Shown here: positions 2,046-8,251 of the stretch, one piece after another | Layout: each line of letters begins with the position of its first letter | Numbering within the stretch: position 1 is the stretch's first letter | Assembly (NCBI GenBank): GCA_018432315.1 | Contig: JAHDLB010000029.1 | Span: 1 to 64,000 of the forward strand | Direction: 5' to 3' | Source of the DNA: Anaerolineae bacterium | GTDB taxonomy: Bacteria > Chloroflexota > Anaerolineae > Aggregatilineales > Aggregatilineaceae | DNA: 64,000 nucleotides | Program-made: the position numbers and the translations under genes | Notes under the pieces: generated by a model | The model's database searches: none | Told to the model about the DNA's origin: nothing | Seen by the model: the letters and a program-made list of their open reading frames with translations, nothing else

Positions 2046-3812
2046 CTACGCGGCGCCCAGCTTCTGGTTGATCTCGGACAGGATGATGGGCAGGTCGGTC
2101 GCGGCGGCGCTCAGCGCGTCGAGCAGCTCGCGGGCGTCCTGGCGCCGCTCGTCGTCGAGGTCCGCCCAGGCGATCTCATCCGCGGCGCGGATGCCGGGCA
2201 GCGAGTCGAGGATGGTGCGCGCGGCGGCGGCGAACCGGAGGTAGGCGTACTCGGCTGCGTGCTCCGGCTCAGGCGCTGCGGCGGGCTTGACGAACTGGTA
2301 ATCGTCGCCCTCGACCAGGTCGGATGGCTCGACGCGGTTCACGCCGAACAGCCGGTCGTGCAGCGCGTAGGCGTCGAACTCGATCCGATCGTCCCCGTTC
2401 CAGACGTTCGCCGCGACCAGCTTGCGGGCGATCTCGATGGCGCGGTGCCAGGCGCCGTCGTCGGAGCGACCGAGCAGCGTGATGGCGTCGTGGTCGAAGG
2501 TGGCGTGCAGCTCGTCGATCCGGAGGGTACCGAGGTCGAGGCTGGCCGTGACGACGACGATCGGCGACTCCTGGTCACTCTCGGATGGTGGCGGATCGGG
2601 GATGCGGTAGAACGTCAGGAAGTCGATGAGGGTTTTGCGCGGCTGTTCGCGCGCACGCTCCAGCTCCAGGAGTTTGTCGAGCTCCGCGCGACTCTGGCGG
2701 GCGCCGCGGGACTTGATCACGCTGGTGATGTAGGACACGGAGGCATTGAGAAAGCGGTTGAGCTCGTCGTCGCTGTCGGGTGATTCCGCCGGCGGCACGG
2801 GAGACCAGCTCGGCTCCCATTTGGGGATGTGGCTGAACGCGCCGGTCTTCTCAGAGTCCGCCGCACGCTGCTCCAGGCGGTCGACGACGTCGGCGAAGTG
2901 GTACTCGCGCGCGCCGTGCGAGTTGATGTGCTCCTTGACGCTGCCGGCCTCGATCATGGCGTCGAGCGCCGCGTCGAAGGCCTTCCGTTTGATGCCGCTC
3001 GCGCCGGCGATGCGCGATGCGTCGCGGTAGAGCTGGCCGCGCGCCAGCGGGCTGTACTTCTTGCGCAGCGCGTCGACGATGAACTCGCGCGCGATCTGGA
3101 CCTCGTTCTCGCTGGGCGCGGGCGCCGTCGCCGGGCGCGACTTGCCGTCTTTGCTCACCACGCGCTCAGGGAGCTGAACTGTAAAGTCCTTTACAGTTGC
3201 CTCCTGCACGTCGCTGCGGGCCGTCATCTGGCTCACGCCCAACTGCTCGCCGATCGCGCGGTAGCTCAGACCCTGCTTGCGCAGCTCGATGGCGCGCGCC
3301 TGGCGCTGTTCCTTCGTCAGGTGCCGCCGGTCGGCGTTCAGCGACCAGGCCAGCGCCTTTTGCTCTTTCACGCTCGTGGCCTGATCCAGGATGTTGAGCG
3401 GAATCTTCGCCAGGTCCAGTTCGAGCGCCTGGGCGACCTTCAGCCGGTGCAGCCCGTCGATCACGTCGAAGTGGTTGTTCAGCAGGCGGTAGACGACCAC
3501 TGGCTGCTGGATGCCGTGCTCGCGGATGCTGGCCGTCAGGCCGTCGAACTCGTCGTCGGCCAGCGGCGGCAGCCAGTCGGCGTAGCGCAGGTAGAACTTC
3601 GCGTGGCCGATGGCGATGACCTCGCAGTCCGGATCCAGGATGGCGTCGTCGGGAGATGTGCTCGCGGTGGTCTCGCCGCCGCGCTGCTCGGTTGCGGGCG
3701 GGGGCGGCGTGGCCCGCGGCGCGGTGAAGGGTCCCTTGGGGCGGGTACCGGCGGGCTGCTCGGTGTGGGGCGATTGTGATTCGGGGGTTGATTCGCGGAC
3801 TGATTCAGACAT
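2046..3812 (-). CDS. ParB-like nuclease/partition-domain protein, long form
   Basis: The protein has 588 residues, about twice the length of a chromosomal ParB. Residues 1-60 are disordered and Pro/Thr-rich. Residues about 63-155 match the ParB N-terminal fold, with DGLHRL (119-124) in place of the usual GxxR nucleotide-binding box. Residues about 178-203 form a helix-turn-helix (LSYRAIGEQLGVSQMTARS). The C-terminal 380 residues are unique and end in a helical segment, with no recognisable second domain. An ATG at 3812 follows GGAG at 7 nt. No parA-like gene is visible nearby, so it may regulate or initiate replication of the element rather than act in classical partition. Confidence 0.75.
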   Translation of the reverse strand: MSESVRESTPESQSPHTEQPAGTRPKGPFTAPRATPPPPATEQRGGETTASTSPDDAILDPDCEVIAIGHAKFYLRYADWLPPLADDEFDGLTASIREHGIQQPVVVYRLLNNHFDVIDGLHRLKVAQALELDLAKIPLNILDQATSVKEQKALAWSLNADRRHLTKEQRQARAIELRKQGLSYRAIGEQLGVSQMTARSDVQEATVKDFTVQLPERVVSKDGKSRPATAPAPSENEVQIAREFIVDALRKKYSPLARGQLYRDASRIAGASGIKRKAFDAALDAMIEAGSVKEHINSHGAREYHFADVVDRLEQRAADSEKTGAFSHIPKWEPSWSPVPPAESPDSDDELNRFLNASVSYITSVIKSRGARQSRAELDKLLELERAREQPRKTLIDFLTFYRIPDPPPSESDQESPIVVVTASLDLGTLRIDELHATFDHDAITLLGRSDDGAWHRAIEIARKLVAANVWNGDDRIEFDAYALHDRLFGVNRVEPSDLVEGDDYQFVKPAAAPEPEHAAEYAYLRFAAAARTILDSLPGIRAADEIAWADLDDERRQDARELLDALSAAATDLPIILSEINQKLGAA

Positions 3813-3878
3813 AGTGATGCTCCATCCATTCTACTAGCTCGGTACGATTGGGTTCTGAAAATTGGCTCGATTACCTCC

Positions 3879-3884
3879 ATTATA
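3879..3884 (-). promoter_or_regulatory. -10 box for the ParB-domain gene
   Basis: A perfect TATAAT is read on the minus strand, about 67 nt upstream of the ATG at 3812. No good -35 hexamer lies at 16-18 nt, so activation or an extended element may be needed. It faces away from the XRE gene promoter 115 nt to the right, which makes this intergenic region a natural control point for the XRE repressor. Confidence 0.45.
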
Positions 3885-3998
3885 GTATGTATAGCGCGGC
3901 CCATTAGATTGGCGCCGTGACTCGTGCATCTCGTTATCGCATACGCAAACACAGTATAGCATGGTCGAGTACGCGGTGTCAAGTACAACGTTATCGCC

Positions 3999-4028
3999 TT
4001 GACAAACGGAAACAGCGCCCTCTATAAT
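3999..4028 (+). promoter_or_regulatory. Consensus sigma-70 promoter of the XRE regulator gene
   Basis: TTGACA (3999-4004) and TATAAT (4023-4028) are both perfect hexamers, separated by 18 bp. Transcription should start near 4035. This makes an in-frame ATG at 4027 unusable and fixes the start at 4063. It is the strongest promoter in the window by consensus. Confidence 0.85.
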
Positions 4029-4062
4029 GGTGAGCAGAACCGTTATATCTTCTGGGGGCGAT

Positions 4063-4332
4063 ATGCCTAGAATCGAGAACCGATTTGCCGAATTACTTGA
4101 GCGAAAGCGGCGTCGTGATCGCTCTATGCGGTGGACGTACCGTGAGATCGCTGAGCATACAGGCATTTCGCCAGCAACGCTGACCAGATTCGCACAGCAG
4201 CGTCACAACCAATACGACAGCGAAACTCTCGCCAAGCTGTGTGAGTTTCTAGATTGCGATATTGGCGATCTACTGGTGCTTGTATCAGATGAGGACGACC
4301 AGGGGCAGGTGTTGGCCGTCGCCGCGAACTAG
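4063..4332 (+). CDS. XRE/Cro-type DNA-binding regulator
   Basis: An 89-residue helix-turn-helix protein of the small Cro/C1 type. Helices 2 and 3 lie in YREIAEHTGISPATLTRFAQ, about residues 26-45. LCEFLDCDIGDLL follows, the typical fourth and fifth helices of this family. The start is set by the promoter at 3999-4028 and by the GGGGGCG ribosome-binding site just before ATG 4063. It diverges from the ParB-domain gene and probably represses one or both promoters in the shared intergenic region, as lysogeny-type regulators of integrative elements do. Low-GC flanks and its position at the element edge fit a mobile origin. Confidence 0.8.
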   Translation: MPRIENRFAELLERKRRRDRSMRWTYREIAEHTGISPATLTRFAQQRHNQYDSETLAKLCEFLDCDIGDLLVLVSDEDDQGQVLAVAAN

Positions 4333-4830: not shown

Positions 4831-5040
4831 CTGTTCTTGCCACTCTGTTAGATTGCCGGACAGGAGATTCCCTGCGCTTTTCAGGTCGGATTCGTCAACG
4901 CCCTGGTAATACTCCAGAGCCATCAAGGCAAATTCTACTACGTTCCCGGTGTATGGCATGGCGGGGAAAACAGTGCAGGCGATCACGATTCGCCTGCACT
5001 GGGAGTCAACCGGACGCACCTGAGTTGAGCGGTCAATCAC
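4807..5040 (-). CDS. Doubtful small hypothetical protein
   Basis: A 77-residue frame begins with GTG and overlaps the end of the MFS gene by 8 nt, so translational coupling is conceivable. Its middle part looks protein-like (acidic, helical), but the last ten or so residues are encoded by the terminator hairpin and its T-tract. Base composition is lower in GC than in neighbouring genes. There is no family resemblance I can name. It may be a gene remnant or not be coding at all. Confidence 0.22.
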   Translation of the reverse strand: MIDRSTQVRPVDSQCRRIVIACTVFPAMPYTGNVVEFALMALEYYQGVDESDLKSAGNLLSGNLTEWQEQKNKNPAT

Positions 5041-6640
5041 CCGCGGCGGCCACGCCCGGCAGATCGTGTTCGTGTGCTCCCTGGGCGGGCGCCTCCTCGC
5101 GCGGGGCGCGCACGCGCGAGGGCAGAATGAGGATCACCAGCAGCGCGTTGATCAGCATCACGGCTGCTCCGAACAACATGGCGTCATTCATCCCCGCGAC
5201 GAATGCCTGGTCAGCGGTGTTGATTATGGTGTTGGCGAACGATTCAGGCACCTGCGGGTTGCTGGCGATCTTGTGCGCCGCCTGAATGCTGCTGCTGATC
5301 CCCTCGAACATGTCGGGACGCAACTGCGGCAGCGCAGCCTTCAACGCCTCGATACCATCCAGGTAGCGGCCATTCATGATCGTGCCGAGCACGGCGATCC
5401 CCAGCGCGCCGCCAAGCTGGCGGGTGGTGTCGTTCATCGCCGAGCCGACACCCGCCTTGTTGACCGGCACCGAGCCCATGATCGAATCGGTGGCCGGACT
5501 CATCGCGAACCCCATGCCGCTCGCCAGGATGATCTGCCCAACAACCACGGTCGAATAGGCCGTATCGACCTCGTACATCTGGGACATGAACAGCAGGCCG
5601 CCCGCCGCTATCATAATGCCGAGGGCGACGGTTCGCTTGGTGCCAAGCCGTTTGGCGATGCGCGCCGATGAAACCGACACAACCGCCAGCGATACGGCCA
5701 TCGGGACCATGCGCAGCCCGGCATCCAGCGCCGAATAGCCCTGAATCGTCTGGAGGTACTGGCTCAGGAAGAAGATCGAGCCGAACATGCTGAACATGAT
5801 GAACGTCATGGCAATATTCGCGCCGGTGAACGACATGTTCTTGAAGAAGTGCAGCGGCAGCATCGGGTTGGGGGCGCGGCTCTCCCACCAGGTGAAGATG
5901 GTCAGCAGCACGGCGGAGATGCCGAAGGCCGTCAGCACGTGCGGGTCGGTCCAGTCTTTCATCCCCGCCTCGATGATGCCGTAAATCAGGGCGAACAGGC
6001 CGGGCACCGACAGCAGCACCCCGATGATGTCCGGCTTGGGCGCGTGCTCGTCCTTGGAATCGGCCAGGAAGAACGCCCCACCCAACAGCGCGACGGCGAC
6101 CACCGGCAGATTGACGAAGAAGACCGCGTTCCATTCGAAGTGCTCCAACAGCAGGCCGCCCACGACCGGGCCGACACCGACGCCGAGCCCGAATATGGCC
6201 GCCCAGACGGCGATAGCCTGCGAGCGTTCCTCGCGGGGGAAGGTGGCGCTGATGATCGAGAGCGTCGCGGGCATGATCGTCGCGCCGCCGATGCCCAGGA
6301 AGGCGCGGGCCGCGATCAGCATTTCGGTCGAGGTGGACAGGGCCGCCCACAGCGACCCGAGGCCGAACATGACCAGGCCGAATTGCAGCGCCCGTTTGCG
6401 CCCGATCTTGTCGCCAAACGAGCCCATCGTCAGCAGCAGCGCGGCGAATACCAGCACGTAGGCATCCACGATCCACTGCAAATCGCTGGCCGATGCGCCG
6501 AGATCGTTCGAGATCGAGGGCAGGGCCACGTTGAGAATGGTGTTGTCCAGGCTGATCACCAGCAGCGAGATGCCGATGAAGAGCAGGCCGAGCCAGCGGG
6601 TGGAATAGCCGGGCAGGTTCTGGTGTGTGTCTTTCGACAT
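5033..6640 (-). CDS. 14-TM MFS drug/proton antiporter (EmrB/QacA, DHA2 type)
   Basis: A 535-residue inner-membrane exporter of the DHA2 family. Hallmarks are the TM1 signature LDNTILNVALP, the cytoplasmic motif A GDKIGRKRALQ after TM2, and repeated Gly-rich helices such as GLGVGVGPVVGG (motif C) in TM5. About 14 hydrophobic segments are visible, and the length is normal. The start at 6640 is chosen because AAGGAGGAC stands 7 nt before it. The substrate is unknown; family members export hydrophobic cations, dyes or antibiotics. Its promoter carries the same palindrome as the ferredoxin gene (6727-6742), which ties it to the nearby Crp/Fnr-type regulator. Confidence 0.88.
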   Translation of the reverse strand: MSKDTHQNLPGYSTRWLGLLFIGISLLVISLDNTILNVALPSISNDLGASASDLQWIVDAYVLVFAALLLTMGSFGDKIGRKRALQFGLVMFGLGSLWAALSTSTEMLIAARAFLGIGGATIMPATLSIISATFPREERSQAIAVWAAIFGLGVGVGPVVGGLLLEHFEWNAVFFVNLPVVAVALLGGAFFLADSKDEHAPKPDIIGVLLSVPGLFALIYGIIEAGMKDWTDPHVLTAFGISAVLLTIFTWWESRAPNPMLPLHFFKNMSFTGANIAMTFIMFSMFGSIFFLSQYLQTIQGYSALDAGLRMVPMAVSLAVVSVSSARIAKRLGTKRTVALGIMIAAGGLLFMSQMYEVDTAYSTVVVGQIILASGMGFAMSPATDSIMGSVPVNKAGVGSAMNDTTRQLGGALGIAVLGTIMNGRYLDGIEALKAALPQLRPDMFEGISSSIQAAHKIASNPQVPESFANTIINTADQAFVAGMNDAMLFGAAVMLINALLVILILPSRVRAPREEAPAQGAHEHDLPGVAAAGD

Positions 6641-6699
6641 GGGAATAGTCCTCCTTGGTGACTGGCAGTTTGAGTTCGCCCTGTGGTAGGCCAAAGGCG

Positions 6700-6742
6700 A
6701 TCATCTCACAGGCTGGCGAGCGTGTCTTCGACTTTTGTCGGA
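6700..6742 (-). promoter_or_regulatory. Promoter and Crp/Fnr-type operator of the MFS gene
   Basis: On the minus strand the palindrome TCCGACAAAAGTCGAA (6742-6727) runs into a -35 element AAGACA (6728-6723). A 17-bp spacer and GATGAT (6705-6700) follow. Counting from the -10 box, transcription starts at about 6693, and the palindrome is centred at -41.5. That is the class II activator position used by CRP and FNR. A 22-bp segment including operator and -35 recurs exactly at 7529-7550. Confidence 0.7.
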
Positions 6743-6764
6743 TTCGGGAGCGAATGGCACGGAA

Positions 6765-7229
6765 TCAGGGGGCGCTGTGTTGTGAGCGCGGCTTGAGCCA
6801 GTCGTGCCACTTGAACCACAGCGCGATCAGAAGTTCCTGCTCCAGGCGGGCCTCGAAAAGCGCCTGCCTGAGCGACGGAATCGTGAGGTCCCGTTTGCGG
6901 ACCAACTGCCGCACGCGCTGCCGCGCCTGTTTCAGTGCGCGCTGGTGCACGACCGGGAAAGGCTCGACCTGGGATTCGGTCGCCAGCCGGGTGATCAGGG
7001 CGTGCTCGATCTGGTAGGTCCGCAGTTTGCCGGCGTCGCCGCGCGGCGGCCTGTCGTCAGCGAAGTGATTGCCGAGGTAGCGCTGCCAACGGTGCAGGCG
7101 GGTCTCGACGTCGATCAGGTATTCGGCCAGGAAATCCTGCCCCAACAGGGTGATCAGGTCGCGCTCATCGTCGAGCATGTCCCGTATGAGGGCGCGGACG
7201 TTCAGAGTCGGGCGTGGTTTGTCGAACAC
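6765..7229 (-). CDS. Hypothetical protein co-expressed with the ferredoxin
   Basis: A 154-residue soluble protein of unknown family. It is predicted nearly all helical, with an acidic N-terminal half and an Arg/Lys-rich segment around residues 95-130. There are no Cys clusters, signal peptide or membrane helix. The GTG at 7229 is preferred because AAAGGAGCC precedes it and it begins 2 nt past the ferredoxin stop, which implies one bicistronic message. The tight coupling suggests it uses or is served by the ferredoxin, possibly as a redox-dependent enzyme or sensor. The sequence itself does not say which. Confidence 0.6.
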   Translation of the reverse strand: MFDKPRPTLNVRALIRDMLDDERDLITLLGQDFLAEYLIDVETRLHRWQRYLGNHFADDRPPRGDAGKLRTYQIEHALITRLATESQVEPFPVVHQRALKQARQRVRQLVRKRDLTIPSLRQALFEARLEQELLIALWFKWHDWLKPRSQHSAP

Positions 7230-7231
7230 GA

Positions 7232-7465
7232 TCAGGCTCCTTTTGGTGGGACGATGACGACTTGGAAAGGGCGCTCGATGGCTTGCGTGGGGCAGATACG
7301 CTCGCAATAACCGGCATAGTCACATCGCTCCGGGTGGGCTACAACCGCGCCGTGATCGGTCAGCGCCAGCGCCCCGTGGGGGCACACATCCACGCACAGC
7401 CCGCACCCGGTGCAGCGGTCGTGATCGATGAGCGGGACCGGCAGTTGTTGTGCTGGCTGCGCCAT
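7232..7465 (-). CDS. 2[4Fe-4S]-type ferredoxin with an incomplete second cluster motif
   Basis: A 77-residue bacterial ferredoxin-like protein. The first cluster motif is complete: CTGCGLCVDVCP. The second reads CDYAGYCERICP, where the usual second Cys (CxxCxxC) is Ala, leaving three Cys. The cluster there may be a [3Fe-4S], be absent, or have another ligand. The start at 7465 is chosen because GGAG lies 5 nt upstream; an ATG 15 nt further upstream is possible. It is the first gene of a two-gene unit behind an operator-bearing promoter, so electron transfer to its 154-residue partner is a reasonable guess. Confidence 0.85.
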   Translation of the reverse strand: MAQPAQQLPVPLIDHDRCTGCGLCVDVCPHGALALTDHGAVVAHPERCDYAGYCERICPTQAIERPFQVVIVPPKGA

Positions 7466-7506
7466 ACGCGCTCCGTGCAAAGCAAATCGCCCAGGTTACT
7501 GTGTCA

Positions 7507-7549
7507 AGCATACGCCCTGGGCGACTGTGTGTCTTCGACTTTTGTCGGA
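7507..7549 (-). promoter_or_regulatory. Promoter and Crp/Fnr-type operator of the ferredoxin unit
   Basis: The architecture is the same as upstream of the MFS gene. The palindrome TCCGACAAAAGTCGAA (7549-7534) is followed by -35 AAGACA (7535-7530), a 17-bp spacer and -10 TATGCT (7512-7507). The predicted start is about 7500, so the palindrome centre is again at -41.5. The site lies between the regulator gene and the ferredoxin gene. Confidence 0.72.
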
Positions 7550-7558
7550 TAGTGCGGG

Positions 7559-8251
7559 CTACGTTTCGAGTCCGGCCCGCGCCTCAAGCGCCGCCTTGTC
7601 GAGAATCTGTATCTGGTGCCGCTCGACTTTGATCAGGCCATCCTGGGCCAGCGACCGTAACGCGCGGTTGATCACGTCCGGGACGGTGCCGAGGCGAGCG
7701 GCCATCTCCGATTGGGTCGCCCACCGGTGGCGGGGCAGGATGTCGGTTTGAGCCTGTTGCAGCAGCAAGCGGGCCAGCCGCGCCTCGACACTGCGCAGCG
7801 ACAAATCCTCGACCAGTTGAATGAGGTGAGTGACGCGGTTTGCCAGATCCTGAATGACGGCGCGTGCCAATGGGGGATGGTCGTCCAGCAGGCGGAGCAT
7901 GGTCTCGCGCTGAATCGTCCAGATCGTGGACGGTTCGAGGGCGATCACGGTTGCCGGATTGGCATCGCTGGCGAACACGGCGACGGCATTGAAGACTTCA
8001 CCCGGCCCCAGGAAATTCAGGATCTGCTCCCGGCCATCGGGCGCCGTCTTGATCGCCTTCAGCCACCCGTTCTCGACGACACAAAGCCCGCTGCTGGATT
8101 CGCCTTCGAGGAAAACGACCTGGTCCGGCTCGTAAGTCCGTTTGACCGCAGTACGGGAGACTGAATGCAGCGTGGCGCTGTCCAGACTGTCGAGATACGC
8201 GATGGAGGCGAACAGCGCGGCGGCGGTATGGGGCTGGTCTGCATCGGGCAT
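7559..8251 (-). CDS. Crp/Fnr-family transcription regulator
   Basis: A 230-residue regulator with the standard layout. An N-terminal cyclic-nucleotide-binding-like beta-barrel covers about residues 15-120. A long dimerisation helix covers about 125-155, and a winged helix-turn-helix about 165-222 (WATQSEMAARLGTVPDVINR). Only one Cys is visible, so an Fnr-type [4Fe-4S] sensor is excluded; heme/NO (Dnr-like) or nucleotide sensing are alternatives. The start at 8251 has GGGAG upstream. It lies 43 nt past fbp and may be read through from it. The twin palindromes at 6727-6742 and 7534-7549 are its likely targets. Confidence 0.85.
   Translation of the reverse strand: MPDADQPHTAAALFASIAYLDSLDSATLHSVSRTAVKRTYEPDQVVFLEGESSSGLCVVENGWLKAIKTAPDGREQILNFLGPGEVFNAVAVFASDANPATVIALEPSTIWTIQRETMLRLLDDHPPLARAVIQDLANRVTHLIQLVEDLSLRSVEARLARLLLQQAQTDILPRHRWATQSEMAARLGTVPDVINRALRSLAQDGLIKVERHQIQILDKAALEARAGLET

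Follow-up and report, generated by a model that had tools for sequence, protein, structure and literature searches.

A Crp/Fnr-type regulator encoded in a 64,000-nucleotide stretch of DNA from an Anaerolineae bacterium (hereafter the window) very probably acts as a class II activator at two nearby promoters that carry an altered operator. According to the proposed mechanism, the regulator (7559-8251) would bind TYCGA-N6-TCGRA operators as a dimer. The operator centres would lie at -41.5 in two promoters whose -35 elements are poor, and the regulator would activate transcription from this class II position. One promoter would drive a ferredoxin and a 154-aa protein, and the other an MFS exporter. 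Replacement of Arg180-Glu181 by Pro-Asp would drop the selection for the G of TGTGA, so that the half-site becomes T(C/T)CGA. Sequence comparison established the sites, their linkage to a regulator clade, a promoter geometry that is fixed and a correlation between helix and operator, and we infer that the regulator physically binds the operators.

Gene organization of the region

The order on the minus strand was regulator, operator 1, ferredoxin, 154-aa protein, operator 2 and MFS exporter. The regulator (7559..8251, minus strand, 230 aa) matched cNMP_binding (PF00027, 1.6e-23) and HTH_Crp_2 (PF13545, 2.8e-13), both past the cut-off, which places it in the Crp/Fnr superfamily; its helix reads LGTVPDVINRAL. 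A single cysteine is present (C57), which is not kept in the clade, and the Fe-S ligand set of Fnr-type proteins is absent. The first gene past operator 1 encodes a 2[4Fe-4S] ferredoxin of 77 aa (7232..7465, minus strand), which adjoins the regulator in many relatives. It is followed by the gene for an all-helical 154-aa protein with a GTG start (6765..7229, minus strand). This protein had no Pfam match, and among 60 other relatives a homologue was found in G007 only. Its predicted model has four helices, for which fold comparison gave no confident match. The exporter (5033..6640, minus strand, 535 aa) is a DHA2/EmrB-type MFS efflux permease, with a match to MFS_1 of 8e-59 and a TIGR00711 score of 279 bits against a cut-off of 230.

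To the left of the region, at 2046-4332 of the window, lie an ORF that resembles ParB on visual inspection and another small ORF that is HTH-like; the two may be the sign of a mobile or plasmid-like segment. A tRNA search of the window gave no hit. The same genome encodes two paralogous Crp-type regulators, L005 (G000:C29) and L006 (G000:C35), which are 35-37% identical. Each has a ferredoxin-like match nearby and a helix unlike that of the window regulator (ATTPETISR/ATTPETVSR), and an operator of the window type was absent near both.

Operators and promoters in the window

An exact 22-nt direct repeat, GTGTCTTCGACTTTTGTCGGAT, was located at 6722-6743 and 7529-7550, and both copies read ATCCGACAAAAGTCGAAGACAC on the minus strand. 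Inside the repeat lies TCCGAC-AAAA-GTCGAA (minus strand), an imperfect palindrome with one mismatched arm pair (CCGAC/GTCGA) and the centre AAAA. Operator 1, TCCGACAAAAGTCGAA, occupies 7534..7549 on the minus strand with its centre at 7541.5 and is kept in relatives. Operator 2 has the same sequence at 6727..6742 (minus strand, centre 6734.5), and comparable sites were found before an MFS gene in L016 and before an MFS-containing gene row in G007. Each operator is overlapped by a -35-like AAGACA on the minus strand, at 7530..7535 for operator 1, where NNGACA-like bases beside GTCG are kept in relatives, and at 6723..6728 for operator 2. A spacer of 17 bp separates these elements from the -10 boxes, TATGCT at 7507..7512 (minus strand), whose offset is shared with relatives, and the weak GATGAT at 6700..6705 (minus strand). 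GATGAT is a poor -10; both window promoters are weak matches to sigma-70 promoters, and the promoter scanner returned none at a score of at least 9/12. The exact repeat, AAGACA, the 17-bp spacers, both -10 boxes and all coordinates given in the original prediction agreed with the sequence, as did its placement of the palindrome centres at -41.5, with 6734.5 and 7541.5 corresponding to predicted starts at 6693 and 7500, respectively.

A terminator-like inverted repeat at 7475..7526 (minus strand), with arms at 7516-7526 and 7485-7495 followed by a T-rich stretch, lies across the -10 box of the ferredoxin promoter. Its folding energy was -18.2 kcal/mol (z -2.2). The same layout, a T-tailed hairpin over the -10 just downstream of the regulator gene, was observed in about ten relatives. 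The hairpin probably terminates transcription of the regulator gene. Most simply, this terminator and the next promoter would occupy the same DNA, and a coupling between termination of the regulator gene and the target promoter is possible.

Frequency of the motif in the genome

TYCGACNNNNGTCGRA with up to 2 mismatches was found 11 times in the window, where 13 occurrences were expected from shuffled DNA, and it is thus not enriched. The window also contains a second exact repeat, of 21 nt. The intact pattern occurred only three times in the entire genome of 5.69 Mb, compared to two times for the reversed control. The repeat in one genome alone is weak evidence, only marginally above chance, and it is the conservation in relatives that lifts it above chance. 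Since the palindrome alone was nearly undecidable in its own genome, relatives were compared. The third genomic copy (G000:C61:295131) is located just past a histidine-kinase-like gene with no fitting -10, and it is unproven as an operator.

Linkage of motif and regulator in relatives

A contig scan identified eight regulators homologous to that of the window (44-79% identity), every one of them in a Chloroflexi/Anaerolineae record, and the core with at most 1 mismatch was present at seven of these eight loci. A class-wide scan for the pattern covered 346 genomes, and a separate, independent scan was performed for the regulator. The two scans overlapped in about 20 genomes from at least 8 families, in which at most a few kb separate the intact core from the regulator. 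Intact YCGACAAAAGTCG was found within 1.5 kb at 40 of the 64 loci with the window-type helix GTVPDV. Permuted palindromes (11 controls) averaged 0 at the same loci, and the intact motif was seen at none of the 24 loci of sister regulators with GTVRE. The motif had been predicted from the window alone, and its recurrence near the regulator in relatives bore the prediction out. The remaining 24 of the 64 Pro-type loci had no intact site nearby; some sites are degenerate and some contigs are short.

A Pro-type regulator was detected in 24 of 38 motif-bearing genomes compared to 26 of 308 motif-less genomes (odds ratio 18.6, p 6e-14, uncorrected for relatedness; G176 and G197 were taken in without a check of helix type), leaving 14 of the 38 in which it was not detected. 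The cluster regulator-site-ferredoxin...site...MFS is conserved in G007, and regulator-site-MFS is found in L016. With high confidence, as far as comparison of sequences can tell, these are genuine, conserved sites that are linked to the regulator clade.

Specificity of the regulator

Aligned on GA, the operator reads TNCGA-N6-TCGNA, with a gap of six bases as in the Crp site TGTGA-N6-TCACA. Crp contacts its bases through residues 180, 181 and 185 (PMC12531629), and a correlation between R180 and the G of the half-site was reported in 2005 (PMC1274295). In the window clade, positions 180 and 181 of Crp numbering are Pro and Asp (P191-D192 in the window regulator), and the sisters keep Arg and Glu. 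The base at the position of residue 180 was counted at the best site per locus, with up to 2 mismatches elsewhere. It was C66/T22/A20/G0 for the Pro type, thus G in 0 of 108, and G24/A2 for the Arg type, thus G in 24 of 26. A motif-free count of short palindromes gave CCGAC as the top half-site for the Pro type and GCGAC for the Arg type. One locus outside the class, with Val at position 180, had TTCGAC. The R180-to-Pro switch corresponds to one change on the tree, and for this reason the correlation of helix and operator has almost no independent replicates. The helix-operator rule itself is not new here, as it was already published in 2005 (PMC1274295). The comparative data support the predicted recognition of the palindrome by the adjacent Cys-poor regulator.

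Comparison with known systems

The window system shares with E. coli CRP the TNNGA-N6-TCNNA spacing and the -41.5 position, and the R-E sister regulators have G at the Crp position. The contact residues are P-D-R here compared to R-E-R in CRP, and no G is present at the R180 base. The two proteins are 22% identical, and the R82-S83 pair of CRP is missing from the aligned window regulator. FNR/DNR sites (TTGATnnnnATCAA) have the central GA in the same register, and the activator geometry, predicted here, is also alike. In contrast, the FNR/DNR half-site is TTGAT and not CCGAC/TCGAC, residue 181 is Asp in the window regulator, and its single Cys does not provide the Fe-S cysteines of FNR. No conserved His or Cys ligand was found in the alignment of the window regulator clade. 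cAMP is improbable as the signal, and so is an Fe-S cluster of the Fnr type.

A resemblance to nitric-oxide regulators of the HcpR or DNR type was also weighed. HcpR1 proteins with Ser/Pro at position 180 use TTGACnnnnGTCAA (PMC1274295). The HcpR1 of delta-proteobacteria is, like the window regulator, a Crp/Fnr protein with no Fe-S cysteines, with Ser/Pro at 180 and with a ferredoxin-like target, frdX (PMC1274295). The arms had been predicted to match no known Crp, Fnr or Dnr consensus. They do differ from Crp and FNR/DNR sites, but they are Crp-spaced half-sites and resemble the HcpR1 operator wyTTGACnnnnGTCAArw (PMC1274295). There is a small chance that the regulator is a true member of the HcpR or DNR type and not a look-alike, which would be compatible with class II activation. 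The recurrent heme-copper/NnrS-like partner described below and a NosD gene near by in two relatives would fit such an assignment. However, the arms are CGAC (TYCGAC-N4-GTCGRA), not TGAC or TGAT, the gene neighbourhood differs from that of HcpR1, and in sequence DNR is more distant than the Crp-type regulators of actinobacteria. Furthermore, hcp in the window genome and seven relatives has no such site. Among 12 genomes, hcp was present in eight, none with the motif nearby. Membership in HcpR was rejected, the motif being absent near hcp in these eight genomes. No publication on a regulator with a TYCGAC-N4-GTCGRA operator was found in a literature search of incomplete coverage.

Promoter geometry and mode of action

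TAnnnT starts exactly 23 nt past GTCG in 38 of 50 non-redundant intact sites, with 0-3 at other offsets. The -35 in relatives tends to NNGACA, with variation at the first two positions, which also belong to the operator. With the -35 hexamer counted directly after GTCG and a spacer of 17 bp, this single offset corresponds to -41.5, and the predicted class II position thus extends to the relatives. The candidate operators have the features expected for Crp/Fnr proteins, an inverted repeat with Crp/Fnr-type spacing at a promoter.

MFS exporters are common targets of local repressors, and one of the two window promoters would drive an MFS exporter. The same regulator could act as a repressor, covering the -35 and blocking RNA polymerase until a signal releases it. 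The overlap of operator and -35 would suit this role, and the linkage and specificity evidence fits it equally well. Repression is nevertheless improbable. The 38 sites share one distance from operator to -10, as class II activation needs, whereas repressor operators usually tolerate varied registers, and the core promoters fell below the threshold of the scanner. Activation by the regulator is likely from this fixed geometry and the weak core promoters; the activator role of the original prediction is thereby favoured, although we infer it and a site over the -35 also fits a repressor. It is very improbable that the palindrome is the site of another factor, an extended promoter or a mobile repeat with the Crp gene as a mere neighbour, as the near-background motif count in the window genome and the 14 motif-bearing genomes with no detected Pro-type regulator might suggest, since the operator base changes with the helix class of the regulator, motif and regulator occur together in at least 8 families of the class, the spacing is that of a Crp site, and the sites lie at promoters of unrelated genes outside any mobile repeat.

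Target genes across lineages

The putative targets of the regulator vary by lineage. In the window they are the 2[4Fe-4S] ferredoxin, the 154-aa helical protein and the predicted DHA2 efflux pump. G007, from the same family, has the same genes, with CopD-like and TetR-like genes in addition ahead of the exporter. The partner seen most often in other families is a membrane protein of about 400 aa with invariant histidines. Weak matches to COX1 (best 2e-4) and NnrS (best 2e-3) were each obtained for 3 of 13 members. The predicted model (pLDDT 79) matched cytochrome oxidase subunit I in Foldseek with a probability of 1.00, an E-value of 0.02 and a TM-score of about 0.55. A profile search of the family against PDB sequences gave no match, and the heme-copper assignment therefore rests solely on the fold comparison and the weak Pfam matches. 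The class has 66 copies of the protein. A Pro-type regulator was located no more than 5.5 kb from 38 of these copies, and in 37 cases the two genes share a strand. In G089, G160 and G290 an intact site is located upstream of the heme-copper-like gene, with the regulator far from this trans site or on another contig. In the window genome no copy of the heme-copper-like protein was detected. The gene is unannotated at L101:3559-4740(-) and at about 20 further loci.

Other recurrent neighbours, assigned as longest-ORF gene guesses, were cupin, DUF6069, ferritin-like, VIT1, DUF1858 and site-2-protease-like genes, and a NosD gene lies near two loci. The heme-copper/NnrS-like partner and NosD point, as a suggestion only, to respiration or nitrogen oxides, and the regulator may respond to a respiratory, redox or nitrogen-oxide signal. 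The predicted two-promoter regulon described the window genome well, in which essentially these two promoters were found, but it is a lineage-specific version, the heme-copper-like partner being commoner elsewhere.

A broader reading can be put forward tentatively. A Crp/Fnr subfamily centred on one class may have exchanged (T)GCGAC for (T)YCGAC operators through a single R180-to-Pro switch. It may control an undescribed heme-copper-oxidase-like/NnrS-like protein together with ferredoxin, cupin and ferritin-like genes, may answer a nitrogen-oxide or respiratory signal, and may have been redeployed in the family of the window to a ferredoxin and a drug-type exporter. The comparison turns a guess from two sites into a regulon that can be tested throughout a large bacterial class of mostly uncultured members, and the link between a regulator and the unannotated heme-copper-like protein offers a way to approach the role of the latter. 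Regulators of the Pro type and the Arg type, sometimes present in one genome, would be natural pairs for testing how one recognition-helix position redirects a Crp-type regulator. In L109, L110 and L115 the two types were observed no more than about 10 kb apart in one genome.
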